A stretch of 64,000 nt of DNA, from NCBI GenBank assembly GCA_021234155.1, contig JAJEKV010000057.1:5549821-5613820 (forward strand). Direction: 5' to 3'. Source of the DNA: Isoetes taiwanensis. Lineage: Eukaryota; Streptophyta; Lycopodiopsida; Isoetales; Isoetaceae. Position 1 is the first letter of the stretch; every line of letters starts with the position of its first letter. A program made the translations under genes and the position numbers. The notes beneath the pieces were generated by a model, which did no database searches, was not told the DNA's origin, and saw only the letters and a list, made by a program, of their open reading frames with translations. Below, piece after piece: positions 3,743-38,562 of the stretch.

Positions 3743-3745
3743 ACC

Positions 3746-11646: not shown

Positions 11647-11968
11647 TGGGCAACTAGGAAATAATCAACACGTTGCATTAGAAGGTGATAACTATATTAT
11701 ATAAATGCATTTTCGAGGTATGAGATGCATGTTTGAGATATAGAAAAGTTGTATAACAATGTTGACAAGGAATTTGACATCATTTGTAACACTCATGGAG
11801 ATGCCCCAGGATGGAAGTGTAAATTACATCAAGTGATTTCTGCCTTGATTGAAGCCTCAAAGGACTAAGGGGAAGGCTCTCATGCTTTGTATGGGCATTG
11901 CATGAGAGGCGAGGACTGATCATCTCGCATTGTTGATGATGAACTAACTAATATTGCAAACTTCACTT
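11647..11968. other. No feature seen
   Basis: AT-rich sequence between the LTR-like segment and the inverted repeat at 11969. I see no reading frame or repeat. Confidence 0.5.
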
Positions 11969-12002
11969 TATAAACAAGGTTTAAAATGAAACGCACTTAT
12001 TT
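11969..12002 (+). repeat. Left terminal inverted repeat of the 16.9-kb element
   Basis: TATAAACAAGGTTTAAAATG and the next 14 bases match the reverse complement of 28838-28871 at 33 of 34 positions. A further AAGTGCGTTT follows at 12006-12015, and the same decamer occurs twice at the right end (28823-28832, 28842-28851). Confidence 0.8.
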
Positions 12003-12199
12003 AAGAAGTGCGTTTGGAAGATTCCTTTATAAAAATTGAAAACTTAAAAAAAACACGCAAAATAGGGAGCAAAATAGATTGTTGAGCAATTAGCATTCGG
12101 GATACGGTGCTTCGAATGGCACCCGAAAGGAAGTTGGCCATCCAACTGGGTTCGCCCAAGCGAACCCTGAGAATTCGCCCAAGCGAACCCCGAACCCAA

Positions 12200-13541
12200 G
12201 CGAAGTCGCAGACGTGGCTATGGCGGCCGGCTCACTTGGCATTCTTTGCGGGTTCGCCTGCCACCCCCTAACCCGGTTACCTGCGCAGGGCGTCGGTGGT
12301 GCACTCGCCACCCTACCGGGTTAAGCCGCTTCAGCGAATCACGGGCGGCGTGCATGATGGCAGAGCGTCGGTGCGTCGGTGGAGTGCCCGCCACCCTACC
12401 GTTCCCCAGGGATTTATCCCGGGTGGCAGGCCCACACGGTGTGGCCATTATGGCCTGGTATGGCCCGGTGGGGATGACTGCGTGCCTTTTACCGGGTTCG
12501 CCAGCGAACTGTGGTGGTAGGTCTTTCGCATAACAGCCCTATTATGGTCGCAAGTCGGTGGCAAGATCGCGTGCACTGGCACCCTACCGGGTTCGCCAGC
12601 GAATCCAGGGCCTCCGCTGCACTGACCGCTTGGTGGAGGAAATCCAACTTTCGGTCTTCTTTGAATCCAACTTTTCGGTGCTGCAATTCACGAAAAGGAA
12701 TCTATGAATTTTGAGTGTAGCCTCTCGAGTATATATTCATACCTTCGAGGCTTTTGAGTTTGTATGTGAAGCGGTGGCGCCGAGCGGTTCAAGTTCGGGC
12801 TGATCTTGAAGCCAATCTCCGCGGCAACGTCTATCCGCCAAGTGAGTTTCTATCCGCTTGGTGGGCAATTTTTTTCTTGTTCTGGTCCATATTTTGTTAA
12901 AATGTTTTATTCTAAAATGGCGTGGAAATTGCTTGATATTGTCATTTTTTCGTGGAAAATCGTTGCCATTCTTCTTGCCCATCTTGTTACAATGGTCCGC
13001 CGGGCTTGAAGACCGTTTTGCGACGTTGTGTCCCTTCTAGCGAATAATGCTCCTCCTCCTCTTCCTCCTGTGGACATCTCCAGCAATCCCCGCCTCCTCC
13101 TCCTCCTCCTCCTCTTCCCCTACTCCTTCCTCCTTTCCTTTCACCGCCGTTTAAACGATGAGTGAAAGGGAGCTTCGATTGCGTCCGTGGGCAAGTCGCG
13201 GGAACGATCGGTAGAATGGCTCACCGAGCCAAATAATGATGAAACAATGTTGGATGTGCAGATAATGATGCAAGTCGTTGCATCCAATTGTCAAGTCCTC
13301 AGAATGGACAAAAACAATGTATAATATTTTATATGAATGGGAAACAAGTAGTATAATGTGTTGCTTTATAATTCATATTTGTGTTTTGTGAAGACCCCAA
13401 TGTATCTATAGCTTTGTACTCAGGCTTGTGTTCATGTTCGACTGTACCTCAGATATCTATTCGAGATCGTCGGTGCTAGAGCAGGCGCAGTTGCTATAGC
13501 AGGAGAATGGCTGAGGTAGTCACTGGCGACTCACCGGTGAG
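12200..13541 (+). other. MULE subterminal repeats and 5' region
   Basis: At 12280-12620 there are dispersed copies of CACCCTACCGGGTTCGCCAG-like units, GC-rich and probably subterminal repeats. An AT-richer stretch with TTTT runs (12860-13000) and CT-rich tracts (13030-13140) follows. No domain-bearing frame is seen. This is likely the promoter or 5' untranslated region of the transposase gene. Confidence 0.4.
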
Positions 13542-14746
13542 ATGTCAGATGAAAATGATAGTGAGTATGACCTTCCTGACAACGAGGATGACACAATGTT
13601 GGAGGAGGACACCGGGGATAATGTAGATGACGGGTGGAACCCGCCTGGTCAGGTTGCTCCAGAAGTTACTCCCAGCCAAAATTCCCAAGAACTGCTTGTA
13701 CATGAAGTGGCCGGTGTCTACCCGGACCCAGTTCAATGGCTCCGTGTTGCCCCCCAGGGTGGTTATGCCCTCAACGAGTCTGTGTATGGGTTGATGAGGC
13801 TGTGCCTACAGGAACACTATGTTCCCCACCCGGCCGAAATAAGTGCTGCTGATCCCCTCTTGCCCCCGGTCTCGCAGAGAAGCGGGAGGCCACCCATCGA
13901 GCACCATGTCAGGTTGATGTACCGATGGGCTGCATATTGTGAGGAGTTTGCAGTTGACGATGACTCCAACGGCTGGTTGTACCGGCGCGTAACTGGGCCT
14001 CATAAGTTAGTCCCTTACGTGGAGTTTTGGAGCCAGTTGGTTGCCATGGGCCACTTGAATGGAAGCACCCATCGGTCCCCCACTGCCACGTTTGAAAAGA
14101 TTTCAGAGGAATGGGAAATTGGTCTGCGGCGCCATGGCATCCCACAGGAATACATAACTGCATGCATGGAAGTGTGCACGTGCAAAAGTGGTCGCACCAT
14201 GAAGGACAACGACTTCAACTACGCGGAGGAGACCACCGTGGACCTCCTCGAGCAAAGGGTGATTGAGCTTCAAACCACTCATCGTGTCCGTTTGGTCCAT
14301 GGACATCAACGTGTCAGGGCGGCGACGGGCGAGATTGTGGATGACTATGCCTGCCACCGATGGAGGCAACCACGCAGGAGAGGGACCCGGGGGGATAGGC
14401 AAATCAGACGGTCCCACCGCAGAGGTTGCTTGTTTCGTTTGCGGACAGTGAAAGATAATGGAAATGGTGCACGGATATACGTTAGCACCGAACACACTGG
14501 CCATGATCCTTTCACCAATGCGGAAGATTGGTCCATGCGTGCATCCCGAACTCCCTTGGCGGCCGCCGACTAGAGCTTAGAAGTATTGGAATGACCCGTG
14601 CTGCGTGGGACATCGCAAGAGCACGGGGACCACAAATACGTACGACGGTGAGCCCAGTTGAGAGAGTCACATACCGCTTCACGATGGCGCAGGAGGATGT
14701 GTGGCAATTGGCCTACCGGCAGAGAATACTCGGTAAGCTCCACTGA
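13542..14746 (+). CDS. MULE transposase, N-terminal exon
   Basis: The open frame starts MSDENDSEYDLPDNEDD and runs 343 codons, with an acidic N-terminus, then a Cys/His- and Arg-rich region (ACHRWRQPRRRGTRGDR; YVSTEHTGHDP) that resembles the DNA-binding part of SWIM-type transposases. After a frame change near 14570 the frame continues SIGMTRAAWDIARARGPQIR to about 14730, where GTAAGC (14733-14738) is a good donor. The frame change could be an indel or a small intron. ATG 13542 is the first Met in an acidic open frame. Confidence 0.55.
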
Positions 14747-14854
14747 TAAATCTTTTACTATGGAACAGTGACGTTGTTGTAGATTTATGAGAATGCTTAG
14801 TTCGCTGCGAATAGTAATGAATTTGAAGTAAATATTTTATCATTTTATGCATCG

Positions 14855-15270
14855 TAGGCGGGAGTTTGGGTACGGACTGGGAAAGCCTCGAGAGCGGGAT
14901 TGACGATTGGAAAGCCTCCGGGAAGGTGATTTTTCACCAGCCTTGGAATCCGCGATGTCGCCGAAGCCGTTGGACCGACCATGGATCCTAGTCATCCAAG
15001 ATGACAGGATGTTGGAGGCTACTGTGAGATGGAGCGCTGGCGGTGGTTGGGCCATGGATTCAACCTTCTGTACAAATCTGTGGAAGTTTCCCTTGTACGG
15101 AGCGGTTGTACCGATTGCCGGGGGTGTGGGGTACCCAGTGTTTTACATGCTATGCAGCGTGGAGGCCGACGAGGGGCACCAACGACATGCCCTCGAAGAT
15201 AGCGCCACGCCTTGTCTTCGGTTTAATGGGCACAATCAGACCGAGGTCAATCACCATTGACATGGACGGT
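14855..15270 (+). pseudogene. MULE transposase catalytic core, first part
   Basis: After an acceptor near 14858 the frame holds DWESLESGIDDWKASGKVIF and then GGWAMDSTFCTNLWKFPLYG, which carries the first catalytic Asp (AMDST) of the MULE/SWIM transposase fold, followed by VVPIAGGVGYPVFYMLCSVE. A frameshift near 15180 moves the continuation to another frame, where ITIDMDGTVERRA (about 15250-15290) would hold the second Asp. These blocks are diagnostic for the DDE core of plant SWIM-finger transposases. The enzyme is broken in this copy. Confidence 0.65.
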
Positions 15271-15363
15271 ACTGTGGAGAGACGGGCTATCACCGAGGTT
15301 GTGTCGGGAAGACTAACATTGTTGGGAAGATGGCGAAAGCGTGTATGTCGACCCGTGCATTGA

Positions 15364-15759
15364 TTGTATCAACACATTGGTAACAATAGCCTCGGTTTTG
15401 CAAAAAGGTTGCGGTGCAATGTTCTTGCATGTTGGTTCCATCGGCGTCATGGGCAAAATATCCGTTCCGCGCTGGCCGAGATGCTAAGGAAAGACGTGGC
15501 CTTGCGGCTGTCGAGGTTGATGACTGAGCCAAATGCCAACGCCTACAATGCCCAGCTGGCACAATTTCAGCTTCTCTATGGACAAAACCACATCATCCAA
15601 GGGTACTTGAATCACAACTGGTTGAATGGGGCGACGTGGGATGGTAAATGGCAGAGACACAAACGGCTGTTCAACCATGCCAACGCCGACACAACAAACT
15701 ATTGGAGTCACACCGAAAGTTTTGAAGACTCAAACCTTGCAATTGCAAAGTCAATATAA
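15364..15759 (+). pseudogene. MULE transposase core, second part
   Basis: The frame reads VLACWFHRRHGQNIRSALAE, the conserved C-W-F-H helix after the DDE strand, then a helical stretch and TTNYWSHTESFEDSNLAIAK. That corresponds to the N-T-N-N-x-x-E-S motif with a conserved Glu. It is linked to 14855-15270 by a frame change. It belongs to the same transposase. Confidence 0.65.
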
Positions 15760-15911
15760 GGATGTACACACTAGTGTCTCATCTCATTGGTTTTCGGGAC
15801 GGACGATGCAGTAGGAGGCACAATCCTAACTCGGTGCGAAGAAAGATGGAGTCTTGGTAAGTACAAAAGGGTGTAACTCTCTCGTGTGTTGGTCGTAACC
15901 TCTCTTTTTCC

Positions 15912-16572
15912 ATGCGTACCGAAGTTTGGGACGCTTATAGCACGCTCATATCCAAAGAGACATGCTTTGGTGCTCACTCCATTATCCAATCATTGCACGA
16001 TAACCCCAACGCCATCCGGTTGGAAGATGCCGCAGACGTCAGTTATCTATGGCTAGCCACCAATCGGAGGGACCGAGATACACTCAAGATATGAGGATGC
16101 GATATTGCGACGCCCATGCCCTCATGCCGTGTGCAAACATCTCATAGCGGAGACTATTTCCTTACCCCGAGCCACCCCCGCATTGTACAATGAGCTATTT
16201 CCCAACCGACAATTCATTCCGCCCATGCCTCCGCGACCGCCCGCACCAATGAACGACGTCGATGTCCTCATGCCGCTGCTACAACAATGGGATGCGTTGC
16301 TCATGGCCGAACGTCAGACTGTGCAAGCCACTATGCAAGATGCTCATGCTCTTGACCCAGGAGATGTGCGTGAAATTATATCCAAGGTTCGCAGGCAGAT
16401 ACGATTCTATAGAGACGCAGCCGGCCCCCCGGTTCACGTCTTTCATGGCGGTTACGATAGGCAGCAAGAACATGCCCGCAGTGGAGTCCACAGATGGCGT
16501 GCAAGGCCGACCGCAGCGAGGGACCAACCACCACGACCTCGCGCACGAATGAGAGGCCACACAGCAAACTGA
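15912..16572 (+). pseudogene. MULE transposase C-terminus with SWIM zinc finger
   Basis: The frame 15912-16094 ends before CPHAVCKHLI (about 16115-16150), the C-x-H-x-x-C-x-H half of a SWIM finger (C-x-C-x(n)-C-x-H family, DNA or protein binding); the first C-x-C is blurred by a frameshift near 16095. The tail is Pro- and Arg-rich (PPMPPRPPAPMNDV), ending at the stop 16570-16572. Confidence 0.6.
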
Positions 16573-16825
16573 TATGCCATCACTCATAGCATTGTCACAT
16601 AAATAATGTCGCATATAATGTTACATACATGATTACATGATTACGGAGAAAAGCTTCTAGCTAGATAGATCCCAAACAAAGACTAACAAAGGACCATCGA
16701 AGTCTTTGTTGGTACCAAGACACCCTACAATAAAGCGGCCGACTACTACGGGCCACTCACTCCTAAACAAGCCAAGACATCGCCGCACCGTGGTACCAAC
16801 CCCGGCTTATCGGTATAACAAGATC
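16573..16825. other. Spacer between transposase and Ulp1-like gene
   Basis: Convergent 3' ends of the two MULE genes. Nothing else is seen. Confidence 0.4.
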
Positions 16826-17510
16826 CTACGGGTTTGCCACACGTCCCGCACGAGGTGGCGCATGATGAAACCAATGTGCATGCCACAGGTATTGTTGTCG
16901 ACCTGCAGCGGGCACAATGCAGGCCGCACATTTGAGGCAGCACCCCATCGATGTAACACCGGTGCCCCCATTCGCCAAGACCCAAGCGGTCGCTACTGCA
17001 CAAAGAGAGTACAGTCGATCACTAGTGGCGGGCACAAATGGGAAAGACAGGGGACTAGAAACACTCACGAGTTTAAGCGCCGGTAGGTTGATGCGCTCCG
17101 AAAACCCCGCCGCGGAAGGCATGTTGTCGAAGTACCACCAGCCCACGTGATCGTCATCTCCGAGGCCTAGGCGAAAAGCGCACGCCGGCGGATCGTATGA
17201 GAGCAACAAGCATCCAATGACCATCGCGACACGCCAAAGATGTATGACTTTCGCTTCCCTTAAGTCGAGGATTGCCTCGGAATTGAAAGTAAAGCAAAGA
17301 ATCGAAAGTACTTACCCCTCGGGACGATGGGCCGTAGCACTGCACGTAGTGCACCCGGTCGGGATGCGGGTGGGAAGAAGGTGGGAGACGACTCCTCGGG
17401 AGGGACGTTTCGACACCGAACAACATAGTCGTGATAGTAACGGGGTCTATCATCAACAACTCACGACGCCCTCTCCAAGCATCCGCCGCGAACACGCTAC
17501 ATATAAGCAC
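16826..17510 (-). pseudogene. Ulp1-like cysteine peptidase (C48) remnant
   Basis: Read on the minus strand, the catalytic order of Ulp1/SENP peptidases is visible: GHWMLVALI (about 17220, His), GWWYFDNMPS (about 17140, Asp/Asn region), then about 65 residues on GTGVTSMGCCLKCAACIV (about 16950-16900), where the nucleophile Cys is expected. The first two blocks are in frames one base apart, so a frameshift lies near 17195. Family members cleave SUMO-like modifiers; MULE-borne copies are common in plants. The usual Gln before the Cys is not clear, so the assignment rests on spacing and the HW motif. Confidence 0.45.
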
Positions 17511-19190
17511 ACGCCAAATATCGATTTTGTCGATCCATACAAACTAAACATAAACCCGACACGCACCTCATCAACACTCGAATGTGCCCCTCCTCCCATC
17601 GGCCCATCGTGGGCGACGCCGAGGAGGTCGATGTTAGTCACGACGCATGCTTTGGCCCGCCCTCTTGCAATATCCAAGTCGCCGCACCATCCGGACGCCT
17701 CGCCGCAACCATGGCAAGGTGTTCTAAGTGATCCGGGCCGTAGTAGTGCGCGCGGAACACCCTAACCTCTTTCCTTAAAAGGATTTGAAGATGTAACCCA
17801 GCGGGATCCGTAAGTGCTCGGGAACTGCGGCCGACCGGCCCGTGGGCCGAGACCATCCTCGAATGGGTACACACACCGTAGCTCCAGATGGTGTGCCCGT
17901 CCGAACTCTCCGCAAAGCGGGTACATGAAAAACCCGTGCTCGGTCTCTTATCCATGCCTCGCTCCCTCGACATTGCGATCAGCGAAATGGGGAAGTCAAT
18001 GTGTGTGCCATGCCCGCGGTGCCCGCCATCGCCGCCCTCATGATATCATCGAGGACCCGGGCGACTTCTGCTGGTCAGCCTCGCCACCGCAGCGCCCCTA
18101 TGGAAGGAGGGGTGGCCATGTACGATCGGCCGGCGGGGACGGTCTCATGATCGGGGCTGGATCGGACGCGGGTCCCTACCTCGACCGAACTCTTCCCCTC
18201 GCCGCCTCGCAAGCCACTCACCTCCCCGCAATGGAGGGATCGGGTTGGAGTGTGGATGCTCGTGGCAAAGATGACTGGCCAGAACTCGGGCCGAGACTCC
18301 CCGTGATCCCTGTGGAGCTCGGCTAGCAACTCCTCCTCCGTGGGAAAATGGCCACCGATCCTCTCTCAGGCAATGGCCCGGGCCATTGAGCATAGCATGT
18401 GCGGTCCAGTCTTCTGTCGAACGCCACACTGTGCTAATTAGCTCTTACTCTAATGCGACCTTCATGATAGGGCTGCATCCTCTCAAGGCCCCGCTACCAG
18501 GCGGTGTCGGCTGGCCTCATAAAACATGGCGCCCCGGCCCTCGGGGAAGGCATCTAGGGCCGCCTCGGGGGTAAGGACATCTTTGTAAGGCGATCGTTGT
18601 TGCTCCTTGTCTCCTCGCCTCTCTATGTCGCCCGCGGCCTCCATCATACGTGCGGCTTTTGCGGGATCTTTCGACGCTTTTGCAGCCCCCTCCCCGCTTC
18701 GGACACCACTCTCTCAGAATTGCGGGGTTGCACCCCTTGGCCGGGAATGTCCATGCGTGGGCCACCATTGATCCGCATGGTGGCTCGATGGTGCCCCCTA
18801 AGCTCCATGTGGGTCAACCCCGGAACCGGTCAGCGGCGACTTCTATCCACAAAGTGTGTACACCTGTGTCTTTGTGCAAATCCACCGCATTTGGGCAGCG
18901 GTGTGGGGCCCGACCGCTCTCAACAGGCGTGACCACATGCGCACGGGCACCAAATGCCATGGTATTCCACGTCTACAAAACAAATCGGTTAACAAGCACA
19001 CAAAACATACCTAGCGGGATAAGATTTGGTGCGGTTGGGGTACCATTCAACAATGCTACCGATCGTGGGGGGACATCAAAGCCGCTTGAGCCAAATGGCA
19101 AGGGACGGCATCATCCATGCCGATTTGGGGAAGCGCCTGGGCCGGAGACATGGTCTTTGGCGGATAAATGTAGATTGCTCAAATAGATAT
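17511..19190 (-). other. GC-rich region, probably N-terminal part of the Ulp1-like gene
   Basis: GC-rich sequence with several overlapping medium frames on both strands (for example minus 17638-17973, 18145-18429). None shows a domain I recognise. Position upstream of the peptidase core suggests exons or decayed coding sequence of the same MULE gene. Confidence 0.3.
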
Positions 19191-19640
19191 CCGAATTCCG
19201 TGTGATTATGAGTCGACGTAAGAGAAGCTTTAAGAAAAAGGAGAAGCTTCAACAAATAAAAAGAAGCTTCAACAAATAAAAATAAGTTCAACGTTCAAAG
19301 AAATAAAAATAAGCTTCAACAAATATAAATAAAGCCCACCTAAGGAAACAAACTTTATTATGATGGGCAACTCTCACCAATCAGAAAGCAATAGGGATGG
19401 CAATAGGGAACCTAGATGCACTTGTACGAGCACACTTATAATTTTGTCAATGGAGCTCAAAACAAGACTCAAAATCGCTCAATGCAACTCAAAATCGTTC
19501 CAAACAAAGAAAAAAGGAAGGCGAAATACTTGTTTTTAACAGGCTAAGGAGCCACGTTCTCCAATCGATCCAACAAAGGAGCCAACAAAGTGGCCACGTT
19601 CACAATCGATCCAACTGGAGTTGCTTCTGGAGCTTCTTCT
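19191..19640. repeat. AT-rich stretch with AAGCTTCAACAAATAAA repeats
   Basis: Three to four imperfect copies of AGAAGCTTCAACAAATAAA occur at 19240-19330. The rest is AT-rich and featureless. Confidence 0.5.
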
Positions 19641-19739
19641 TGCTTCAGGAGCTCGTTCTACAGCTGCACAAGGAGCGTCCGAGCCGAAGCGCAAAAAATT
19701 CTCTAGAAAAAAATTTTGCTTCCATTGTTATAATCCTGC

Positions 19740-20235
19740 AGGGCACGATTCCATGGGCCCGATGCTCACGGGCTCACGAAACCCGGGGTGACGGCCGACA
19801 GCGTCAGCCGGTCCGCCACCCGGCCCGTAAAATGACGGTCAGACTTTCCGTGCCGAGGGTTCGCCAAGCGAACCCGGTAGCAGAACCCTAAACCCACCTG
19901 AGCGCCGTATTCCCTCGCAGCTGGGCCTGCATCGCTAACCCGGGGTTCGCCCGCCAGCAACTCCTAGGCCGGGTCCGCCCAGAACGGCCAGAGCCGCCAA
20001 GCCCTCTCCGCACTGCCAAGCCTCAAGAATCATCCCGTAGCTGGTTAGCCCCAAGCGAACCCCGTGAGGGGAGACACGCCGATCCGCCAAGCCCCCGACG
20101 CCCACGCCACGCGGGCCCTCGCGAACCAAGTGGGTTCGCCCAAGCGAATTTTCCGGGTTCGCCCGGGCGAACCCACTTGGTTCGCGAACTTGGATTCGGG
20201 AGCCAATAAAGTGCGCGTTCGGGATACCCCCAAAA
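19740..20235. repeat. Right subterminal and terminal repeats of the MULE
   Basis: Repeated GGGTTCGCC(C)AAGCGAACCC-like palindromes; 20120-20185 forms a strong hairpin and is the inverted counterpart of 12147-12195. Medium open frames here (for example minus 19935-20241) look like products of base composition. Confidence 0.55.
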
Positions 20236-20240
20236 AAGCA

Positions 20241-20580
20241 ATATTTTTAAAGCTTTTTCATTTTAAAAGAAGGGCAAAAAAAAAAAAATGCTTGTTTTAA
20301 GGAGAGAGACATTAACTTTGATAACTCAAGAAGTATTTATTGTTAAAAAACAGAAGAAAATATAGATTGTTTTTTGCAAGCTTAATAGAAGTACTAAAAA
20401 AGACAAACATTGGAAAGACAAAGAGTGTGAAACTCGAGCAAGAAAAGAGTTGTTTCAATTAAGCATTGTTAGAGAGACAAAGCTTTCAGTTTAAAAATCT
20501 TCATCAAAATAAATTATAATATTACTTAGCACATAGTTTACAATGAAAGTGGTTAAGAACTCATTCAGATAAATTTATAC
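20241..20580. other. AT-rich spacer between MULE and methyltransferase gene
   Basis: TTTCATTTTAAAAG at about 20256-20269 resembles the core of the 16.9-kb element's terminal repeat (TTTAAAATGAAA) but matches over only about 13 bases. One half-palindrome ATAAATTTATAC lies near 20570. No gene is seen. Confidence 0.3.
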
Positions 20581-20854
20581 GAGAGGTGGTTTCTTCTTCA
20601 ATCCACAGGACTCTCGCACCCTTTAAGATCCGGGCTCTTTGCGAGCTTACAAAAGAAGGGCGCCTCCTTACGATTCCAAACCTATTGGCACAGCGGTTTC
20701 TGCGGCTCGGGCACCACAGCTCCAAGTCAACAAACTCCACCTCCTCATCTCTTCTTCCCGTAAGTGGAGGTCAGATTTTACGTAAGTGCCCTTAGCATCG
20801 GCCGGCACCGTTCTTTGCTCCCGGTTTCCCGTTTTCATCGTGAAAGGATTCGCA

Positions 20855-21265
20855 AGAGCTTATCCCGGTCCCGATGAAGCTTACTTTATCCGGGTCTATG
20901 TCGACGGAGGCGACATTGGTACCGCTTAAGGGCGAAAGCTGGCCGCGGGTGCCCGATCCGGAAAAGGCATCTAGGATCCGCCTCTGCCGAGAAAACCATC
21001 AGATCAAATTATTAATAAGCCGTGGCTTCGATAATGGGACACCACAAATAGCTTTGTCGCCATTTGTGGGTCTTTAATTTCGCAAAAACAATTTGGGGAA
21101 CCGAAATGCATTGCGGGGAGGAGTCTTTTTCATTCGCGTGTTAAAATGAACCATGGTTTTTTGGCGTCCGACTGTAAAAAACCTATATGAAAATGCTCGA
21201 AAACACTCACTAAGCGGACCACCACCATGACCCTTGACGTTTGTTTTAAGCCTGCCAAGCAATAT
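20855..21265 (-). pseudogene. Methyltransferase C-terminal exons (motif I)
   Basis: In one frame I read RNAFRFPKLFLRN, then VPLSKPRLINNLI and RRILDAFSGSGTRGQL followed by TNVASVDIDPDK. K-P...L-I then L-D-x-F-x-G-S-G-T is the standard motif X/I junction of beta-class enzymes, binding S-adenosylmethionine. Two in-frame stops fall upstream; the second sits just before a CGGCAG acceptor, so it may be intronic. An upstream frame (RLVSVFEHFHIGF, about 21190) could be the expected E/F-rich motif VII-VIII block. Confidence 0.6.
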
Positions 21266-21519
21266 AGAAATTAGAAATTAGTAAAAAGAAAACAAGGAAA
21301 ATAAGTTAGCCCAGTTAGTGTGGCGGTATAAACTTATACCACGGTTGCCTTGCTGTATAAATTTATACCACGGCGGCAAGCCGTATAAATTTATACAGAC
21401 ATTGCCTTGCTGTATAAATTTATACCACGGTTGTTCCAGCCTTTAAAATTTAAACCTTAAGACAGATGTGGTATAAATTTATACCAGGGAGTTACCGTAA
21501 AACAAAAAAACGTTAATTG

Positions 21520-21935
21520 TGAAGCTTACCAAACGTTTTTGCCGGGCTTCTGCCAAGCATGCATCCGCTCCCATAGGTTTAAGCACCGACATCGTCTGAA
21601 GGTCGAATGAAAAATGATGACCCTCCAGTTTTCAGATGTCGTGACTTCTTTGAGGCCATCCAGGAAAGACCGGACTTGCACGTGAGTGAAAGCCTCCTCA
21701 TCAAAAGCGCTATCCTTTATTTTAAATCCATAAGGAATATCTGCAATGCATAATGTAAAATGTTGCTTGTCTAAAAGAGTCCCCAGCCTTGTACAATCAC
21801 CCTCAACAACCCTGTATTGGACGTCCCGACCAAATGTGGTAAATCTCTCATATGTACAGTCAAAACTGGAAGTGGCGACCTCTCTACCCTGTTCAATTGC
21901 CTTTAACCTTTGCCTCTCTTCCTTGGCCCTACTGA
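21520..21935 (-). CDS. Methyltransferase catalytic exon (motif IV)
   Basis: This exon is a single open frame of about 130 codons from an AG near 21935 to donor TGG|GTAAGC near 21532. It reads RVVEGDCTRLGTLLDKQHFT then LCIADIPYGFKIKDSAF, the start-of-strand block plus motif IV D-I-P-Y-G of class-beta DNA amino-methyltransferases (compare GDC...L...D-P-P-Y-G). After that come FLDGLKEVTTSENWRVIIFH, a helix and strand (motif V/VI region), and RMHAWQKPGKNVW. Its open state over the whole length argues for fairly recent coding constraint. Confidence 0.65.
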
Positions 21936-21975
21936 ACCAGGTTCAAAAATCCAAAGTGGGTAGCCCCTTCTTCTT

Positions 21976-22480
21976 GTTTCTTAAGAGTAATGTGAGACAA
22001 AGGCACAAACACATAACATATTTTTGCAAAACTTACCCAAACCATCGGGTTAAGCTGCGTGCTCTCGATGATACTTGTCACGTGGTACAACTTGGGTACA
22101 AAAGTTTGCACTCCTCGATCTTCTAGGTTGAGCTGCTTCATTAACTCGGCGGGCAAGTGACAATGTCTTTTCCGATCGCAAAGGGAAAAATATTGTAAGA
22201 CAAAAAGGTAGAAAAAAACATGGCATAGCAAGTGAGGCTTACGTTTTAGCTTCCTTGGCCATCTCGCCTAATGTGAATTCTTTGGCAACTACTTTTTCCA
22301 ACAAAGTAACAAATATTTCTTTGCTTTTAAGACTCAGAATCAAGGCCCGAGGGTACAATGCTCATATTTTTTGTTTTGATTCACCACCTTTCTTTGGTTT
22401 CTTTCCCGCGTCTTTAGCTTGTTCTTTGAGCTCCCCATCTTGAACATACAAAAAATTCTTTCTTGAAGATCCCACACCGT
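21976..22480 (-). pseudogene. Linker exons of the methyltransferase gene
   Basis: Exon 22250-22480 reads FTVWDLQERIFCMFKMGSSK and, after a one-base shift, LILSLKSKEIFVTLLEKVVA and EFTLGEMAKEAK up to donor GTAAGC. Exon 21976-22165 reads RHCHLPAELMKQLNLEDRGV, FVPKLYHVTSIIEST and NPMVW before GTAAGT. These helical segments follow a ParB-like part, as a helix-turn-helix or linker would. No family hit can be named. Confidence 0.4.
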
Positions 22481-22915
22481 AAAGCGGTCAAACGAAATTT
22501 AGTCTTTGAATGGCGTAAGAGGATGGGCACGGCGACTCAACACGGTATAAATTTATACCGCGGTTCGGTCATGATATAAATTTATACACAAAGTGCACGT
22601 TCACAGGTAATTTATATCGCGATTTGCACTGTGATAAATTTATATCAGAAGCCGTCAGCGCATATAAATTTATCACGTTCGTCTCATTGTATAAATTTAT
22701 ACCGCGACCGGTGCACTGTGATAAATTTTATATCGCGGCAGCTTCCGTATAAATTTATACCGCGGCCAGGCACGGTATGAATTTATACCGTCAGTAGGCT
22801 ACTACAAGATTCTAACCACGCTAAACATACTACAAAAGATTGAATTGAATCTTTTACTTACTTGACCATCTCTCGAAAAGCGAAATGAAAGTAGTTATCG
22901 TATTGTTTGACGTAC

Positions 22916-23850
22916 CATTATGGGCTTCTTATCAGAATCATAGCTCAGGCAACACTCCGTCACACAGGCTTCTCGAAGCTCTTGAAGCTTATTCTTCTGT
23001 TTTTTGAAGTCCTCTCCATGCATTTGTTTGAACTCCACGTACTCTCGATGCATGAATCGGATCTTATCTATTAGGCTCATTTTTAACCGAAAAGTCATTG
23101 TCAAGATTGTGACTTTACGGCAATGACTTTTGCCTCTTAAATGCTGTGATACCCACGTAAATATGGGCTTCCACGCTTTTCCACACCTCGTTACGGGTTT
23201 CCTCCTTTGAGAGTTCTTTTCTAGCCTTGTAGCTGTGTGTGCCTCCAAGGACGTAGTAGGTGTAATCTTCGAAGTCTGCTTTTTGTAATCCTGCAATCGA
23301 TTGCATTGACTTCTATCAACCATAACAACTAGAGGCGACACATACGCGCATGAGGATTTCTTCTCATTCTTTGCTTAAGAATGGCCACATGTGCCGCGTA
23401 CAACTTTTCGGACTGGCAAGCACTCGACCCCATCTTCATTTTTTGGTGGCCTCTTGATAGTGCTTAGTGTCAAAGAAATGGTTTGTTTGAGCAGTTTGGT
23501 TTCATTAACCCGCTTGAGAATAGCACTTGACTTATCTGCGGGCTTCACAACGATGTCTGCTCCAGGAGCCTTCTGAAGAGCTTCTGCTGACTCCTCTATA
23601 GTCAAGGGCTTTGTTTTTCTAGATTTTTTCTTGGTAGGAGGCTGTGTATCTAGTACCAGGGAATGCTTCCTACCCTTTCCCTTTGTGTTGCCTGGTTCCT
23701 CCTCTTCCTCTTCCTCTTCCTCTTCCTCTTCCTCTTCCTCTTCCTCTACCTCTACCTCTTCCTCTACTACTTCCTCTTCGATACTACGGGGGTACCATAG
23801 ACCCTTGACCAACACTTTTTCGTCGCACAGCACTATTGACATCAAAATTT
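22916..23850 (-). pseudogene. Glu-rich and ParB-like exon of the methyltransferase gene
   Basis: The acceptor is near 23860 (CATTACAG) and the donor near 22916 (ATG|GTACGT). The N-terminal part (MSIVLCDEKVLVKGLWYPRS) runs into about 20 Glu encoded by a GAG/GAA microsatellite and a Lys-rich, NLS-like segment (PPTKKKSRKTKP). Further on, MVDRSQCNRLQ and YYVLGGTHSYKARKEL match the ParB/Srx fold signature (NR, then GG-x-H-x-x-x-A). ParB domains bind DNA and nucleotide in bacteria and are fused to methyltransferases in phages and some mobile elements. Frameshifts lie near 23370 and 23110. Confidence 0.55.
23697..23772. repeat. CTCTTC/GAAGAG microsatellite
   Basis: An uninterrupted CCTCTT repeat, translated on the minus strand as a poly-Glu tract in the ParB-like exon. 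Confidence 0.9.
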
Positions 23851-23931
23851 CTACTACGTCCTGTAATGCAGGGTTATGTTAAGAGACCCGATGGTATAAA
23901 TTTATACCTGAAAGCACCTAAGAATAACTTA

Positions 23932-24303
23932 CAAAGCCGCTCTTGTAATTGTCCGAAATGTAATCGTGCACGTCTTTAGGCTTGCACATGCTTATTTTAA
24001 ACATTCTAGTATTGAGAACATAGTAGAGGCGGGCCCCTTGTCATGGTTGCCTTCGCATTAGAACTTCATCATCGTTCTCTGTAGCAACAAGTTTCATAAT
24101 TTCGCCAAATAGGTAATAATCATCGACTTGAACTTGCCCTTCCCTCGATTTATTGCACAAGTAAAGGTGCGTGATCGATTGGGTTTGCTCTCTCTGCGCC
24201 CCGTGGACGCGTACCAAGTCCGATCCTTTAGTTCATAAGTCTGTGGCTCGGTGGTGCAGCCTTTGATGATGACCGCCGAGCACAAACTTGATCTTAGGGC
24301 TGG
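23932..24303 (-). pseudogene. BAH-like exon of the methyltransferase gene
   Basis: The acceptor TTTTCCAG lies near 24300 and the donor TTT|GTAAGT near 23932. The frame reads SAVIIKGCTTEPQTYELKDR then FKSMIITYLAKL; a one-base shift gives KLVATENDDEVLMRRQP and then LYYVLNTRMFKISMCKPKDV. The run of strands (YLAKI...E...DDEVLMR...RLYYV...MFKI) recalls a BAH domain, a chromatin-reading module. The call is tentative. One frameshift and one TGA interrupt it. Confidence 0.4.
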
Positions 24304-24895
24304 AAAACGAAAAAAAACCATTTTACATAAGAATATTAACCTTTTTCGAAGTTTTTGAAACACAAAACAAAAGAGAAAAAAGAGGATGAAAGGGCATAAA
24401 ATCCACACTAAATTAACACTTTATTTGTGTCATTTAAGCTAGAAACACAACAATATTACGAAAATATTAAGGTTGGGGACCATTCGTTGAGAGCTTTGGA
24501 CATCAAAAATCTGAAATAATTTCGAAGCGGTATAAATTTATACGGCTCGAGCAGCGGTATAAATTTATACCATTTCCAGTACGGTCGGTATCGACCGTGC
24601 TCGAGCTGGTATAAATTTATACCGCCTCGTGCTCTTTCCGTGATACCGATCAGGCTCGGAGGGGTATAAATTTATACCGCCGTGCTCAAGCCGATAAATT
24701 TATATGCTTTTAACCGAAGCGGTATAATTTTATCGGCCTCCGAGCACTTGCGATAGATCGCTAGTGCTCGAGCCGGTATAAATTTATACTTTCGAAAGCA
24801 CAAAGCTTATAAATTTATACCGATCCGAATCATCTCCGGTATAAATTTATACCGTGGGGCTTACACTCTAAATGATTAAAACAAAAGAGAAACTA

Positions 24896-25050
24896 AAAAC
24901 GATGCGGAAAGTAGACTTACATTGGCCATGACCGTATGAACTAGCGTATAGAGGTTCAGGAGAGCAAATAAGAGGGGGGTATATAAAGGCGGACCGCCGA
25001 CCTTCGACTCTAGCCAAGGCGTATATGGGAAAATAGGATTGGCGTGCCAC
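24896..25050 (-). CDS. Methyltransferase gene, putative first exon
   Basis: The open frame starts MARQSYFPIYALARVEGRRS and ends ...YASSYGHGQ at a clear donor (reading AAT|GTAAGT, near 24920). ATG 25050 is the first Met downstream of the divergent promoter region. No domain is recognised in these 40-odd residues. Confidence 0.45.
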
Positions 25051-25318
25051 GCTTAAGTACCCTCGCTAAGTGCCGCGTTTAGATAGCGTTTCTCCATAAA
25101 GATTCCAATACAAGTGTTCGTGAGTTTTCGTATATAAATTTATAATGTCTTCCTCCCCTCTGTATAAATTTATACCATCTCTCAGATAAATTTATACGGT
25201 CTGCAGGCTACAAGTTTGCCTTCTCTCAGATAAATTTATACCATCCCCTGTAAACTTTTTAGATACCGCTATTCATGTCGTATAAATTTATACAAATTGT
25301 GACGCTACCTTTTCGAGT
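25051..25318. promoter_or_regulatory. Divergent promoter region between the two element genes
   Basis: 268 bp between the start codons of the minus-strand methyltransferase gene and the plus-strand DUF7869-type gene. It carries five exact or half copies of the TATAAATTTATA palindrome (25133, 25163, 25183, 25228, 25280). Each copy contains a TATAAA on both strands, so they could serve as TATA boxes. Confidence 0.45.
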
Positions 25319-26819
25319 ATGGCTCGAGAAAAAGAACTGCAGAGCCTCCAACTCCCCGCTCGCGGGCTTCCTCCTGCGGTGACATTCACACCCCTCAATC
25401 GACACACGAAAGTAGCCTCGAAATTTACGCCTCGATATTCAAACCCCCACTACTGTTGATCTTACTCCAAAGACGACCACCTCGGCTTCCACCACCAGTT
25501 CAATTTACTCCACCACACCCGCCCTCAACGCCGTTTGCCCCCACCAATGCGCGTTTTACTCCACCACAGCCCTAGAGAGGTCGGACTACCTCCTCCACTT
25601 CATTTTAGCATTAAGCCCTTAGTCCACCATAGGCTAAATCCGAGGAGGCAAATCACGCCAACTCCATCAATTTCGCTAAATGGTACTACAACAAGTGGGG
25701 CGGTCGGCAAATGACATGCAACTCCCTTTTTTCACGACACCGGGGAGCTGGTCAACTACGCCACCAACCTCGATTACTTTTTTCCTAGGGAGGGAAAGCA
25801 CCTCCCCTCGGGACTTGCACACACTAAACCTATCGGCATCTACAAGTACACCTCAAGTTGATCTCTTAGGCTAAGAAACACCTCATGTTGATGTCTCGGA
25901 CGAGGACCTACCAAAGCCACAAGACTCTATGTTCAATTCAAAGCCCCCCGCAAGTAAGAATCTTAAGCGTATTAACTTACACAAGAAAGCATGTACAACT
26001 GTTAGAAGAAAGAAACTCATGGAGGAGGCTCACTTGCGGGCAACACATACAAAGCATTGTTGTTCTCAACGTTGTTTGCTTAAGATTGGACTAAAGGAAT
26101 TGAGGTTGATTCGTGATAGTTACAGAGTTCAATGACTCGCTAGACCAAAGGGGCTACTTAGCCTTCAATATTAGGGCGGATGATGGTGAGAAGTTTACTT
26201 ACACGGCTGGTGGCCACACCGCCCTGGTCAAACGGCCTTCAAATTGATTCATGCTTTAGGCGTGAGCGACGACTTGACCGCCTAAAGAAAAGGCTTGACA
26301 AGAATCCGGGCATTAATGACTCGCCATTCGGGAGGCATAACCGTAATTCATGCCCTTCAATGTGTCTCCGGATGGAAGGTTTCTTTAAGGAGTCTTGTGA
26401 GAAACTCCCTAATAGCCCTATGTACCACTTGAGTGACAATTTCACGAAACAAGAAGTCTACGATAATTATAAGGAGATGTGTGTTGAGGCTGAGAACGCT
26501 TTTATCCGCTACTCTTACTTTTCTTGTGCTACGGAAAAAAGAGTTTTCTCGTGGCCATTCCTAGAAAGCATAGGATGTCTGTTTGTGCTACATGCTCAAT
26601 TAAAAGCTCAGAGACAAAATGCAAGGACACTTCACACTAAAAGTAAGCTTCGGGGCGTGTTCTTGCCTAGTTCTACTTAAAAGTAGGTTTTTCCTAAACA
26701 TATTTTCATTTCAGATGCATTGAAGGAGAAACCGAACAAGCACGAGAGAACAACAATCTTTGGAAAGGAGAAAATTGACAAAACATAGGAAGAAAGCACT
26801 GGAACAACCACTCAACTAC

Positions 26820-27722
26820 ATATCAGTTGTTATTGATGGAATGGACCAGAAGAAGACCACCCTACCACATTTTGTCAATGTGCCTAAGGATGCTGCTGAA
26901 GAAGATTTCATACATCTGCATGTTGTTGGTGCTATGGTATTTAATGGAAAACTATCTTGCAAGGCATTTTTGAATTATCCAAACATTCATGCTGATCCAA
27001 ATCTCACTATCACAATATTGAATAAGCTTCTTTCCAATCTAGAACATATACCACCGGTTCTCAGATATCTTGACTAGACAACACGACAAGGGAAAATAAG
27101 AATCAAGCGTTGTTTGCTTATCGCGGCTATGCTAGTAGAGAAACAAATCTTCAAGAAGGTGAAGATTGGTTTCCTGCTTGTTGGTCATACACACGACCAA
27201 ATTGATCAGATGTTCAGTAGGTTCTCTAAACGTCTTGCACGAAAAAAAGCTCTCAGCCTACCAGCAATGATTGAGGTTATCCAAGATTCCTACAATCCTC
27301 GTCCAGACATCGAGTTGTTGGAAGAAACTTATGATTTCAAAGAATGGATTTTTCGAAGAGATCAACTGGGTCACTGTGCTATTGAGCCCTTGAGAAATAT
27401 TACATTTCAGCATCAGATCAAAATTTCACTTGTAGATGGCAGGGCCATCTTACAAGGAAAGAAATATGCCACATCTTTGCAAAGATGGCCGGCAGTGTGT
27501 ATTCAATTCATTCGCACCATCCCCAATACTAGTTCCATGCTCTGCAGAGAGCAAATGCCTCTAAAAAGCTTGAAAGAAATCACAAAGAGTAAAAAGGAGG
27601 GAAGAGCATTTGACTCAAGCAAATCATTGGATTTTATTGAGACAAGTATCAAACGTGCTCTAACCACTTTGGGGAGGCAGATGCTTTATGGTGGCCTCAG
27701 GTTTTTTTTCTCAAGAACGTGA
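26820..27722 (+). pseudogene. DUF7869 core domain
   Basis: The core reads YISVVIDGMDQKKTTLPHF, then HLHVVGAMVFNG, and after a frame slip near 27075 continues LVEKQIFKKVKIGFLLVGHT and HDQIDQMFSRFSKRL. Bases 27076-27125 in the shifted frame encode N-T-T-R-E-N-K-N, the conserved polar block between the halves. D-G-M-D and V-G-H-T-H-D-x-I-D-Q are hallmarks of the family, seen in plants, algae and animals. A nuclease-like DDE/RNase H fold has been suspected from such Asp-rich strands; here that is inference. The slip is a short insertion (TAGA-like) that adds a stop. Confidence 0.7.
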
Positions 27723-28410
27723 TATTTTGCAAGCTTCATTACAAGGTCGAAGACCAGTTACATTCAACTGGCCATCTAGGCAAACTCTCCCTGTGCAAGT
27801 TGATAATCAAGAGGAACATGTAGAGATATTGGCTAGCTCAGATGAAGATGACAGAGTCATGTACACTGGCCCCAGACGCACAGCACAACAAGTTGCTCGA
27901 GTATCTGGTTCAGTCTCAGAGATTCAGAAAGGAATGCTCATAGCTGTCCCAGCTGATAATGATGAGTCTGGGAAGCCGCTCGGCTAGCTAAAAAGTTTGG
28001 AGGTAACAAGAGAGGATGGAATTCCCACTCAACTAAAAGTGCAATCGGATGAGAACAAATGCTTTGCCGGTGCAAGCTTTGGGAGTTATACTTTGGAGAT
28101 GGTAAAAACAGGAGTGGGAAAGAGAGCAAAGTCCAAAGCAAGTACTGCTGTCATAGATCTATCTGAAGTGAAGGTTCTTGCATATGACTTTGTTTTGACT
28201 GCTGCTAATAAGTTACGTATGGTCACTCAAACTTTAATAAGGTCAGCATGTGGATTAGACAAACAACCTAGAAAGGTGGCCAAAAAGGATGATGATGAGG
28301 ACTCACTTGTAGACAGTGAGGAAGAAGATCGTTCGAGTACATCCAGTTTTGAGAGTGAAGCTGAGGATGAAGGCTCAAGTGATCAGGGATTAAATGAGTC
28401 TGGAGGATGA
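27688..28410 (+). CDS. C-terminal extension of the DUF7869-type protein
   Basis: The frame 27688-27987 (FNWPSRQTLPVQVDNQEEHV; VMYTGPRRTAQQVARVSG) and the frame 27997-28410 (FAGASFGSYTLEMVKTGVGK; DFVLTAANKLRMVTQTLIR, then an acidic Ser/Asp/Glu tail) follow the core with one frame change. They match no domain I know. The acidic low-complexity end is usual for nuclear mobile-element proteins. Confidence 0.45.
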
Positions 28411-28837: not shown

Positions 28838-28871
28838 AAATAAGTGCGTTTCATTTTAAACTTTGTTTATA
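28838..28871 (-). repeat. Right terminal inverted repeat of the 16.9-kb element
   Basis: Reverse complement of 11969-12002 with one mismatch (33/34). Confidence 0.8.
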
Positions 28872-28948
28872 TTGCATGAATGATTTTAATAACTTTTGCC
28901 TACAAGGCTTATGTAGTCACTTAGAACTTCTGTGCTTCTGTCCACTTC

Positions 28949-29669
28949 CATTAGGAAATATAGAAGTGGACCTAAATGAATTATAGGTGCATTTGGAGGG
29001 ATGTTGGAGAGCATGGTCAAAGATGAATCTTTTGGTTGGTTGTCAAATTTCTTCTTGAATAAGATTGTTAAATCTCACAAGATTCTAGACTCTTTCTAAG
29101 GACAGTTTGACATTCTGTTGTGATGCTAATGGTTATTTCTATGTAGAAAAAATGAAATCTAAGTCTATATCTCCTAAAGCTTCGAAATATAAAGAACCAT
29201 CAAAATCTTTGAACTTAATGTTGGGAAAGTACTATTAAGTAAATTTCGAATTTTACTTTAATGATTTCGCAAGTCTATGGGTTGGTAAGTTTCCAAATAT
29301 GAAACCGCTAAAAGCTGTTGTAAGTTCATTCTATCTACGAACTTGTTAAATTAAAATAAAATTCAAAATTTATTTAATCGTACTTTCCCAACTTTTAAAT
29401 TCAAAGATTTTGATGGTTGTTTATCATCGGAAGCTTTCTGAGACATAGACTTAGATTTCATTTCCTCTACACAGAAATAACCGCTAGCAACACATCAGGA
29501 TGGCAAACTGTGATTAGAAAGAGCCTAATGAGATTTAACAATCTTATTCAAGAAGAAATTTGACAAACAACTAAAAGATTCATCTTTGGCCATGTACTCT
29601 TGGTACATCCAACACCCCTCCAAATGAATCCATAATTCAGCTAAGTCCATTTCTATCTTTCCTAATGGG
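28949..29669. mobile_element. Foldback (long hairpin) element
   Basis: The left arm (28949 to about 29275) and the right arm (about 29340-29669) are inverted copies at roughly 80% identity, with shared landmarks such as CTTGAATAAGATTGTTAAAT and GAAATGAAATCTAAGTCTA. The loop is about 65 bp. The ends are CCATTAGGAAA / TTTCCTAATGG. No coding capacity. It looks like a foldback or MITE-class element, or an inverted-duplication source of small RNAs. Confidence 0.8.
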
Positions 29670-30320
29670 TAATTATGAGCCATTTTCTACAATCAAGAAA
29701 CACACAACTTAGACTTATGTCCAAATCAGTATATATGCCTTGTATTAAAAAAAAAAATGATAAAGCAAATCCATGTTATAACAATTCGTACATCATCACT
29801 TAACAACGCGGGATGACCAATCCGTGCTTCTCCCGCAATGCCCATACAAAACACGAGAGCATCCTTGTTAAAATCATTTTAGGCTCCACTCAAAAGGCAG
29901 GTTGAATGACGCAATTCACACTTTCATCTTGAGGCATCTGTTAAGAGTGCTCCAGATGATGTCCAATTCCTTGTCAAGTTATGATACAAGTTTTCATATT
30001 TCAGACATGCATCACATATCTGAAACATGCATCAATAGCCTATGCGACATGTTAATCCTTTTCTTAGTCTATGAGGAACTAATATCCAACATTCTCTATT
30101 GGGCAATATTCAATAACATTACCGCATGTACTCACTATTTTTTTTTGCAAGTAATCGTCATTTTCAAAACATATATAACTCTCCTACAAATATTGCCTTT
30201 GGGATATACTTAATTGATACTTTCTCCTAAAATCGACACGTACCTTTTTGAGGAAAAAATAGGATTTTAAAAAATAGAGAAAAAAAAACAGCAAAATAAG
30301 GGATTTGGCTCGGCTATAGC
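29670..30320. other. No feature seen
   Basis: AT-rich sequence; the open frame 29902-30213 has no recognised motif. Confidence 0.4.
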
Positions 30321-35377: not shown

Positions 35378-36490
35378 CTTTGCTTAATATTGTTTCTTGT
35401 GATGTTCCGGCTGTTAACCAACCCTCTGAAAACTTGGATTTCATTGATTGCTCGAATATTAAAGATCCCACTGCTGCTAACCTATATTCCGAGAAAGGGC
35501 TTCTTATCCATTTCCCCATCAAATGCCCTTCAATTGGCGAGGTTAAATTCTGGATTACCAAGACGCACAGAGTTCCAATTCAATCCCTGCGTAAAGTTGA
35601 TGATGAAACCTTTCAGATCTTGTGCAGGGGTAATTATAGTGTGAATTATATGCTAAAAAAAGGGGGGGGGCAAAATTAGCAACAACGTTTTCTATAGTAT
35701 GAGATGGAGCCCTCTGTTCACCCCTGATAATCCCAAACATATCTCGACATCTACTTGGATTACCTTCTCTAATTTGCCGCCATCCTTATGGACTTTATCC
35801 CACCTTAGGGCCATATTTGGCAATCTTGAGCAAATTATATGCATTAACATCCCGCAAACAAATTTTTCCTCCATCTGTATCTCTAAGGAAATCGACTCTA
35901 AATGGTTAGATGCTGTTAAGATCAAACTGTCTAAGGACAGAATTCTTAACCTCAAAATTATTACTCTAAATATCCAATTCAGAAGATTTCTAAAAAGGAT
36001 TCGGAAGATTGTGAACACAATCTCTACAGCAAACAGCCTCCCCTTATTATCCGGCAGGAATGGCGTCCAAAAAAGAAAGAAGACGGTAAGGGGACTGGTA
36101 TGGACAACAAGGAAATTCAAAGTGCTGAGGTTAAAGAATGCAACAGAATAAAGGGTATCGATAACATGGAGTATTTCTTGGACACTGAGCCTAACTCTTT
36201 GTTTTTAGACAATAATTGGAATCTCATATTTATGTCAACCTTGCTGTTAAGTTTAAGATAGGTGACTCTTTCCTTCCCTCTCAAGGGAGAGAATTATGAA
36301 GAGACTGATACAAAGGATCATAATTCAGAGAGTGAATTCATTCACTCATGTGATGAGAGGGGATGGAAACAGATTACTTCAAAGAGAAGAGGAAGAGGTC
36401 AGAAAAAATCTTATATTGGACCTGTCAGACTTAGCCCGAGAAATTCAGCCATTCAATATAGGATGGCCAAAGGTTTGTACAAATGTTAAT
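35378..36490 (+). pseudogene. LINE ORF1 (DUF4283-like RNA-binding protein)
   Basis: The N-terminal frame has LLIHFPIKCPSIGEVKFWIT and FQILCRGNYSVNYMLKK. After a frame change at a G run (35661-35669) the frame reads SMRWSPLFTPDNPKHISTST then WITFSNLPPSLWTLSHLRAI, the W-x-P-x-F...W-x-x-x-x-x-LP signature of DUF4283 in plant L1 ORF1. The C-terminal frame (36262-36489) is charged (KRRGRGQKKS). ORF1 protein chaperones element RNA. At least two frameshifts are present. Confidence 0.65.
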
Positions 36491-37088
36491 GATCAACTCT
36501 GTTAAGATAATCACTTGGAATCTCCAGGGTATCAACAATCTAGTCAAAAGGGATCGTCTGAAGGTCTGTCTTTCTACTCTTAACCCTGATATTTTATTTA
36601 TCCAGAAACATAAGATTCATGACCCTGACCATGGTAATATTATTTCCAAGGCCCTCCCCCCTAATTTCAAAGTTTGGTCAATTAGTGCTAATGACTCCTC
36701 TGCAGGAATTGCTATTGCTTGGAATCAGAAAATTAATTTGGAAGTGAACCACATGATCTATGATAACAATGGGAGGTGGCAGATCCTTGTTGGCAGCATT
36801 GAATCTTGTAAAATTGCCTTAGCAAATGTCTATTCTTATCACAACCCCTCTGATAGGATTATTGTGTGGAACAAAATCAACCAGAGCCTGGCTAATCTGG
36901 ATGTTGATGACCTGGTCCTCGAAGGAGATTTTAACATGGTTACTGACAGTTTCATGAAGAACAGGAACTTCAAGGCTCTTCTCCCTCAGGAAAACTGTGC
37001 TTGGTCGAATCTTCTGACTGCTCATAACCTCACTTTAGCTAGGACTAAGCCCAATGCCTATAGCTGGTCTGAGGTTTTATATGAGTGA
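36483..37088 (+). pseudogene. LINE ORF2 endonuclease domain
   Basis: It starts MLMINSVKIITWNLQGINN and continues LNPDILFIQKHKI (the catalytic Glu position is Lys), SSAGIAIAWNQKI and LVLEGDFNMVTDSF. This is an L1-type EEP endonuclease; Glu to Lys in the Q-E-x-K motif would inactivate it. A stop at 37086 splits it from the SDH region, which is readable at 37137-37160 (YTLSDHxDN). Confidence 0.8.
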
Positions 37089-37185
37089 GAATCTTTGGGA
37101 TAATTGTAGCAGAGTTGAGAATCTGATAGGTTATACTCTTTCGGATCACTAGGATAACAAAGGGAAAAAGAAATCCTATTTTAAA

Positions 37186-38517: not shown

Positions 38518-38562
38518 TTTCCATGGATCATAACTCGATCATCAATACTCAGCAGATCCTCC

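Follow-up and report, generated by a model that had tools for sequence, protein, structure and literature searches.

Genes that combine ParB with a methyltransferase have been described in transposons of brown, red and green algae, according to the parts of PMC12477816 that we consulted, and in one of these elements, Sola1-1_Ec32, a ParB-like and methyltransferase gene lies opposite the transposase. That paper cites Iyer 2011 and Petroll 2025, and its authors put forward the idea that these proteins are able to bind the element encoding them and to modify it. A second system that comes close is VANC21, which, by the portions of PMC5735166 seen, binds to arrays of a short motif in introns and elsewhere in the noncoding DNA of the transposon that encodes it. 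Among further sources seen in part, PMC5890265 describes retrotransposons that carry cytosine methyltransferases and also names DIRS elements as carriers of adenine methyltransferases, and PMC12704722 is a survey of ParB-fold fusions, in which the fusion partner is a methyltransferase in phages and UPF0020 in bacteria; the portions seen of PMC8885841 and PMC12695648 add nothing on the gene dealt with here. We report on a stretch of 64,000 nucleotides of Isoetes taiwanensis (contig JAJEKV010000057.1; the whole stretch is called the window below), which contains a broken methyltransferase gene with introns and a ParB-like segment, a broken DUF7869 gene divergent from it, inverted repeats enclosing both, and an array of short palindromes. 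The explanation that we favour, with a confidence falling just short of even, is that this is a decayed two-gene DNA transposon with DUF7869 and an accessory methyltransferase gene, whose protein bound and methylated DNA at or near the palindromes. The sequence-only reading of this locus had proposed a transposon-borne, spliced gene for a ParB-like protein and permuted methyltransferase, and had suggested old capture with long residence in a eukaryotic element, which would still be speculative; the broken state of both genes, a nested second element, the palindrome array and the algal precedent (PMC12477816) go beyond it.

As such genes are on record in the algal transposons of PMC12477816, a ParB-plus-methyltransferase transposon gene is already a known kind. 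Judged by the consulted parts of that paper, the locus seems to resemble the algal transposons in that parts of an N4/N6 methyltransferase and a putative ParB-like segment belong to one gene which stands opposite a transposase-like gene. It differs from Sola1-1_Ec32 in being a plant copy, in being broken and in having a ParB-like part recognisable by motif and position; the comparison is one of gene layout, and a correspondence of DUF7869 to the Sola transposase would be conjecture. No palindrome array is mentioned for the algal genes in those parts of PMC12477816. For land plants, titles and beginnings of abstracts of the papers listed yielded no report of a ParB-plus-methyltransferase gene, which is not proof of absence. 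The likeness to VANDAL21 and VANC21 (PMC5735166, seen in part) consists in the repetition of a short motif through the introns and intergenic parts of the element, a motif which in VANDAL21 also occupies terminal noncoding DNA. However, VANC causes methylation loss, the VANDAL21 motif YAGTATTAY is non-palindromic and has one orientation whereas the array here is palindromic, and the likeness concerns the arrangement of the motif.

Three strings named by the sequence-only reading were all found again, each in a reading frame of its own on the minus strand of 25050-20580: the ParB-like GGTHSYKARKEL at about 23246-23211, LCIADIPYGF (motif IV) at about 21753-21724 within a 138-codon open frame (21942-21529), and the motif I string RRILDAFSGSGTRGQL at about 20983-20936. 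The gene model that includes them is as follows.

20885 to 24929, minus strand: broken methyltransferase gene with about seven introns, modelled by eye from frames, donors and acceptors
23067 to 23397, minus strand: ParB-like segment (HVAILKQRMRRNP ... SPLVVMVD ... YVLGGTHSYKA ... HNLDNDF) in three frames, recognised by motif and position, with weak profiles
21530 to 21930, minus strand: exon with motif IV (ADIPYGF), matched in its unaltered open frame by Pfam UPF0020 at an expectation value (E) of 0.0015
20885 to 20990, minus strand: exon with motif I (LDAFSGSGTRG) and DIDPDK, from frames and from phage and profile matches

The gene may start at the ATG at 24929, ahead of which a TATA-like stretch was seen by eye. 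The GT-AG intron borders proposed earlier have held up well: GTAAGT, GTAAGC or GTACGT stands in place at five of six candidate donors, the sixth being a GTAAGC one base off, and CAG is present in five of the seven acceptor regions inspected. At the same time, the gene is broken, not intact. Its ParB-like stretch (23402-23067) has four frame changes and one stop, some of which may still be splicing, the other exons hold further stops or a frame change, and a frame change is suspected near the 3' end of the motif IV exon. The frame changes of the ParB-like segment could instead be read as introns (e.g. 23399-23285), but this reading, which would delete the ParB-like strand, was not preferred. 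The locus is a decayed copy, a badly sequenced one being less likely; open frames of 440 and 454 codons in other elements of the window are intact. The N-terminal gene part at 24296-23810 (DDYYLFGEIMKLVATENDDEV, ARLYYVLNTRMFKI) had a single PHROG match, of unknown function, at 0.031 and no Pfam match at E<=1, and is followed by a long Glu tract.

The prokaryotic type of the domains might suggest that the locus is bacterial or phage DNA, recently inserted or present as contamination. We consider this very improbable, given the intron borders with good donors, the head-to-head position with the DUF7869 gene, and searches of phages, plasmids, viral contigs and proteins, none of which produced a close relative. 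In these searches the joined query of 553 residues matched no protein at E<=0.01 among 7996 candidates scored, and with residues 310-553 by themselves there was no match at E<=1 in 834 candidates; at E<=1 the query matched nothing in the PDB or in plasmids and one phage sequence weakly and without annotation (E=0.1), while no viral contig fitted the pattern of the gene.

For the methyltransferase part, two kinds of joined query were used, namely a clean join, in which the letters of the exons are left unchanged and an X marks each junction, and an edited join, in which the junction frames were chosen by eye. With the clean join the best PHROG was phrog_498 (DNA methyltransferase; E=0.015, residues 40-246 colinear with profile positions 202-410) and the best Pfam family was UPF0020 (E=0.0014). 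When the query was reduced to the exons of motif IV and motif I, the same two families came out at 0.0051 and 0.00043, and a first rough join gave 0.022 (PHROG) and 0.023 (Pfam, whole query). The edited join matched phrog_498 at 2.7e-6, a value which depends on the frames picked by eye, UPF0020 at 7.5e-4 and N6_N4_Mtase at 0.047. Shuffled sequences behaved differently: seven of eight (four for each kind of join) had no PHROG match and one, from the clean join, hit an unrelated family at 0.38; none of four shuffles of the edited join matched Pfam. A methyltransferase family ranked top in every version with motif IV that was scanned against Pfam and PHROGs. In the phage collection, searched with E up to 10, all ten records matched by the edited join are annotated as methyltransferase or methylase (seven different phages, best E=0.01), as are five of the six matched by the clean join, the sixth lacking an annotation (best E=0.5). 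Four phage proteins were aligned pairwise with the edited join, each alignment beating 300 of 300 shuffles; as they were chosen from the matches, the result serves as a check and does not amount to an independent test.

In addition, the ADIPYGF exon lies upstream of the LDAFSGSGTRG exon in one gene, which is the beta order. Since the scores are weak and yet give the same answer across libraries, with motifs in beta order, the methyltransferase identity seems moderately supported, and so does the permuted, motif IV-before-I amino-methyltransferase that the sequence-only reading had proposed. Asp at the first position of motif IV, as in the DIPY found here, is commoner in adenine N6 than in cytosine N4 enzymes. 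A structure predicted from the unaltered open frame of motif IV by itself was uninformative (mean predicted local distance difference test score, pLDDT, 40.6). One may ask whether the enzyme acts on RNA instead, as a methyltransferase of the UPF0020 or tRNA type, since UPF0020 is the best Pfam match and the only solved chain matched by the edited join with E up to 10 is a tRNA methyltransferase (0.28). This seems quite unlikely to us, as the motif order, IV ahead of I, is that of beta-class DNA enzymes, the top PHROG match is to a DNA methyltransferase and the matched phage genes all carry annotations as methyltransferase or methylase, for the most part of DNA.

The ParB-like segment is a weaker case, and we call it ParB-like by motif and position. 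Its series ILKQRMRRNP, SPLVVMVD, YVLGGTHSYKA and HNLDNDF resembles the ParB N-terminal domain, with weak statistics. The ParB nucleotide motif is normally of the GG(x)HR type; GGTHSYKA is present here, with Ser in place of the usual Arg. The sole PHROG match of the separate piece was phrog_1033 (ParB-like partition protein), at 0.032, 0.22 and 0.13 for three versions, and it was not listed when the piece sat in a longer query; three of four shuffles of the piece matched unrelated PHROGs at 0.07 to 0.21, and three of four unrelated Pfam families at 0.017 to 0.13. A custom profile of 20 ParB sequences (a Streptococcus phage Javan630 fusion, L008; 14 loci from the 40 listed of 382 phage records; five of 80 genome loci) scored 2.1 bits at the expected place, a score reached or exceeded by 21 of 1000 shuffles (879 reported), and the unaltered open frame at 23312 ranked third among 360 frames of the window. 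The ParB part thus appears only marginally above chance. The Javan630 protein, in which ParB_N is fused to N6_N4_Mtase, has the same order of ParB-like part, motif IV and motif I. Its methyltransferase part, compared with the edited join, beat 300 of 300 shuffles, whereas its ParB part was no better than chance against the segment here (206 of 300 shuffles scored at least as high); moreover, the Javan630 gene is one open frame and the gene here is broken and has introns. Several other matches of the ParB part lent no support to ParB: four PDB sequences, all TFIID subunit 5; two phage records annotated as sulfate transporter; six plasmid records, of which one is a hypothetical protein and five have no listed gene, one of these five with an open frame resembling, by eye, an insertion sequence (IS) transposase; and an NCBIfam kinase at 0.0067, far under its cut-off.

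The most distinctive feature of the locus is a palindrome with the core ATAAATTTAT, in its fullest form GGTATAAATTTATACC (16 bp). Scanning of 20400-25500 with at most one mismatch to the core gave 28 copies: five upstream of the methyltransferase gene, nine, one, seven and five in four of its introns, and one at its 3' end.

25130 to 25293, no strand: array of 5 copies upstream of the gene, between the divergent genes (motif scan)
24530 to 24852, no strand: array of 9 copies in intron A (motif scan)
23894 to 23907, no strand: single palindrome in the 72-bp intron B (motif scan)
22545 to 22788, no strand: array of 7 copies in intron C (motif scan)
21326 to 21484, no strand: array of 5 copies in intron F (motif scan)
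20567 to 20580, no strand: single palindrome at the 3' end of the gene (motif scan)

Perfect palindromes number 25 of the 28 over 10 bp, 16 over 14 bp and seven over 16 bp. With at most two mismatches, the window has 27 occurrences of GTATAAATTTATAC, of which 24 fall within 20567-25293, the expectation being 0.42 for the whole window; 16 copies of it are exact, and any other perfect 14-bp palindrome of the window is found just once. TATAAATTTAT has 44 exact strand matches in the 64 kb, every one of them between 20569 and 25292. None of the 28 palindrome centres lies in a modelled exon, though exons make up 2720 of 4740 bp (binomial 4e-11); this figure is somewhat circular, as the model was made by eye, its edges vary slightly and stops within the motif help to define introns. 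Mean pairwise identity is 0.83 for the 16-bp motif (partly by construction, as copies were selected by their core) and 0.26 and 0.27 for the flanking 13-base spacers, at a composition expectation of 0.257; adjacent spacers reach 0.29 and 0.31. That the motif is kept while its spacers are unrelated speaks for selection on protein binding more than for plain duplication. Palindrome pairs found in viral contigs were set aside, as their five stretches share one 60-bp sequence, on either strand, and represent a different repeat.

Tandem-like spacing raises the question of whether the palindromes are a functionless selfish minisatellite, or a tiny insertion spreading in noncoding DNA. Of 22 neighbour distances below 70 bp, 13 are of 27-32 bp, seven of 52-59 bp and two of 22 and 44 bp, and Tandem Repeats Finder reported three stretches with periods of 29, 28 and 22. 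We nevertheless find this explanation unlikely, because so well kept a motif between spacers as dissimilar as these is unlike plain tandem duplication and because the exact strand matches are confined to the gene region. Another idea, which we judge to be just as unlikely, is that the transposase binds the palindromes, or that a host factor does so in controlling the promoter or splicing of the gene, and that the methyltransferase acts elsewhere. The array does surround and fill one gene, with five copies upstream of its presumed start. On the other hand, transposase sites are expected near the ends of an element, and no exact core was found near the inverted repeats or in the DUF7869 half; moreover, copies are present in four separate introns.

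The favoured explanation also rests on the surroundings of the gene, which the sequence-only reading had called transposon-borne, and correctly so in that the gene stands beside a transposase-like DUF7869 gene, head-to-head with it, inside inverted repeats.

26162 to 28410, plus strand: broken, transposase-like DUF7869 gene, divergent from the methyltransferase gene (Pfam PF25273; extent by eye)
11705 to 11942, plus strand: outer left inverted repeat, 75% identical to 30032-29793 (blastn, E=1.5e-36)
29793 to 30032, minus strand: outer right inverted repeat (blastn)
11969 to 12002, plus strand: inner left inverted repeat of 34 bp, 97% identical to 28871-28838 (blastn, E=1.7e-10)
28838 to 28871, minus strand: inner right inverted repeat (blastn)
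12106 to 20217, plus strand: nested GC-rich element with 74-bp terminal repeats (78%), from repeat comparison
28948 to 29668, no strand: fold-back (hairpin) repeat between the inner and outer right inverted repeats, arms 84-89% complementary (repeat scan)

PF25273 matches one open frame of the DUF7869 gene at E=3.5e-29, and pieces joined with X at a stop at 6.5e-40 over profile positions 2-191 of 192. From its motifs (VVIDGMD, YLD followed by a stop and TTR, and GHTHDQID) the product has the appearance of a DDE-type transposase; that it is of the Sola type would be a guess. No paper naming DUF7869 was found in the literature searched, and of six viral-contig stretches that fit its pattern none was confirmed. 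By eye, no target duplication was seen at the outer or inner inverted repeats, and a gapped extension of the outer repeat beyond 11705 was rejected as gap-driven, since shuffles reach 181.5 vs 354. The nested element sits between the left inverted repeats and the methyltransferase gene and is flanked by a perfect 10-bp direct repeat, TTCGGGATAC, at 12096-12105 and 20218-20227, taken as a target duplication; repeats of this kind are seen in Mutator-like elements. It has long plus-strand open frames, and of five scanned four had no Pfam match at E<=0.1 and one matched DUF3106 at 0.039, below cut-off. No Rfam family was found at 11000-31500.

Elsewhere in the window, 646-4787 holds retrotransposon remains, in which the 440-codon open frame (2420-3742) encodes reverse transcriptase and RNase H, and 36462-39261 a plus-strand reverse transcriptase with the 454-codon open frame (37153-38517), by eye of the type lacking long terminal repeats. 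Near-identical peptides (SAHALS.LEEDEYIVIKSTNMATNASAPA) at 57622-58275 and 62824-63210 indicate a local duplication.

Taken together, a plausible scenario is that DUF7869 was probably the transposase of the element, and that the accessory gene encoded a permuted (beta) amino-methyltransferase behind a ParB-like segment. This protein would bind the 16-bp palindrome, copies of which lie in the promoter region of its gene and in four of the introns, and would methylate adenine, or less likely cytosine at N4, at the palindrome or nearby. Such a mark would make the element's copies distinguishable, whether as a defence against host silencing or for control of its own expression. In bacterial ParB/parS systems, clustered 16-bp palindromes lie near the gene for a ParB-like protein, and the locus, with its putative ParB-like segment, shares this arrangement.

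Several observations weigh against this scenario. The ParB-like domain of the sequence-only reading is borne out by its motif string and not by profiles: the piece did not match PF02195 with E up to 10, phrog_1033 stayed at 0.032-0.22, and no profile confirmed the domain. As for the methyltransferase, its families came out on top in Pfam and PHROGs, while an NCBIfam scan gave no match and no methyltransferase match reached a curated Pfam cut-off. PF01555 (N6_N4_Mtase) scored 14.1 bits with the edited join, below its cut-off of 26.7, and 11.8 bits with one clean join, and was absent from the listing with the other; in a broken gene such a score lowers the claim of N6_N4_Mtase and does not settle it. 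The link between protein and palindrome is conjectural. The array is confined to the methyltransferase side and does not extend over the DUF7869 gene; being one-sided, it could simply regulate the methyltransferase gene. Three short introns have no palindrome. Finally, the ends of the element are unsettled, as the two sets of inverted repeats differ (75% vs 97%), and only one copy of the element was seen in the window.

Among the transposon-borne methyltransferases of eukaryotes, self-marking has been proposed for the algal ones, as far as the consulted parts of PMC12477816 go. By analogy with VANDAL and VANC, the array described here suggests self-recognition. It is conceivable, if rather doubtful, that we are dealing with a eukaryotic transposon which has its own modification system, in which a methyltransferase with a ParB-like part recognises the palindrome arrays of promoter region and introns, so that each copy of the element would carry adenine (or N4-cytosine) methylation on both strands and thereby escape or steer host silencing. 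If this is true, the element would be a self-labelling counterpart of VANDAL/VANC made of phage-type parts. The locus offers a specific candidate for the target, namely a palindrome that is up to 16 bp long and has an A/T core at which symmetric methylation would be possible, and the self-marking proposal thereby becomes directly testable.

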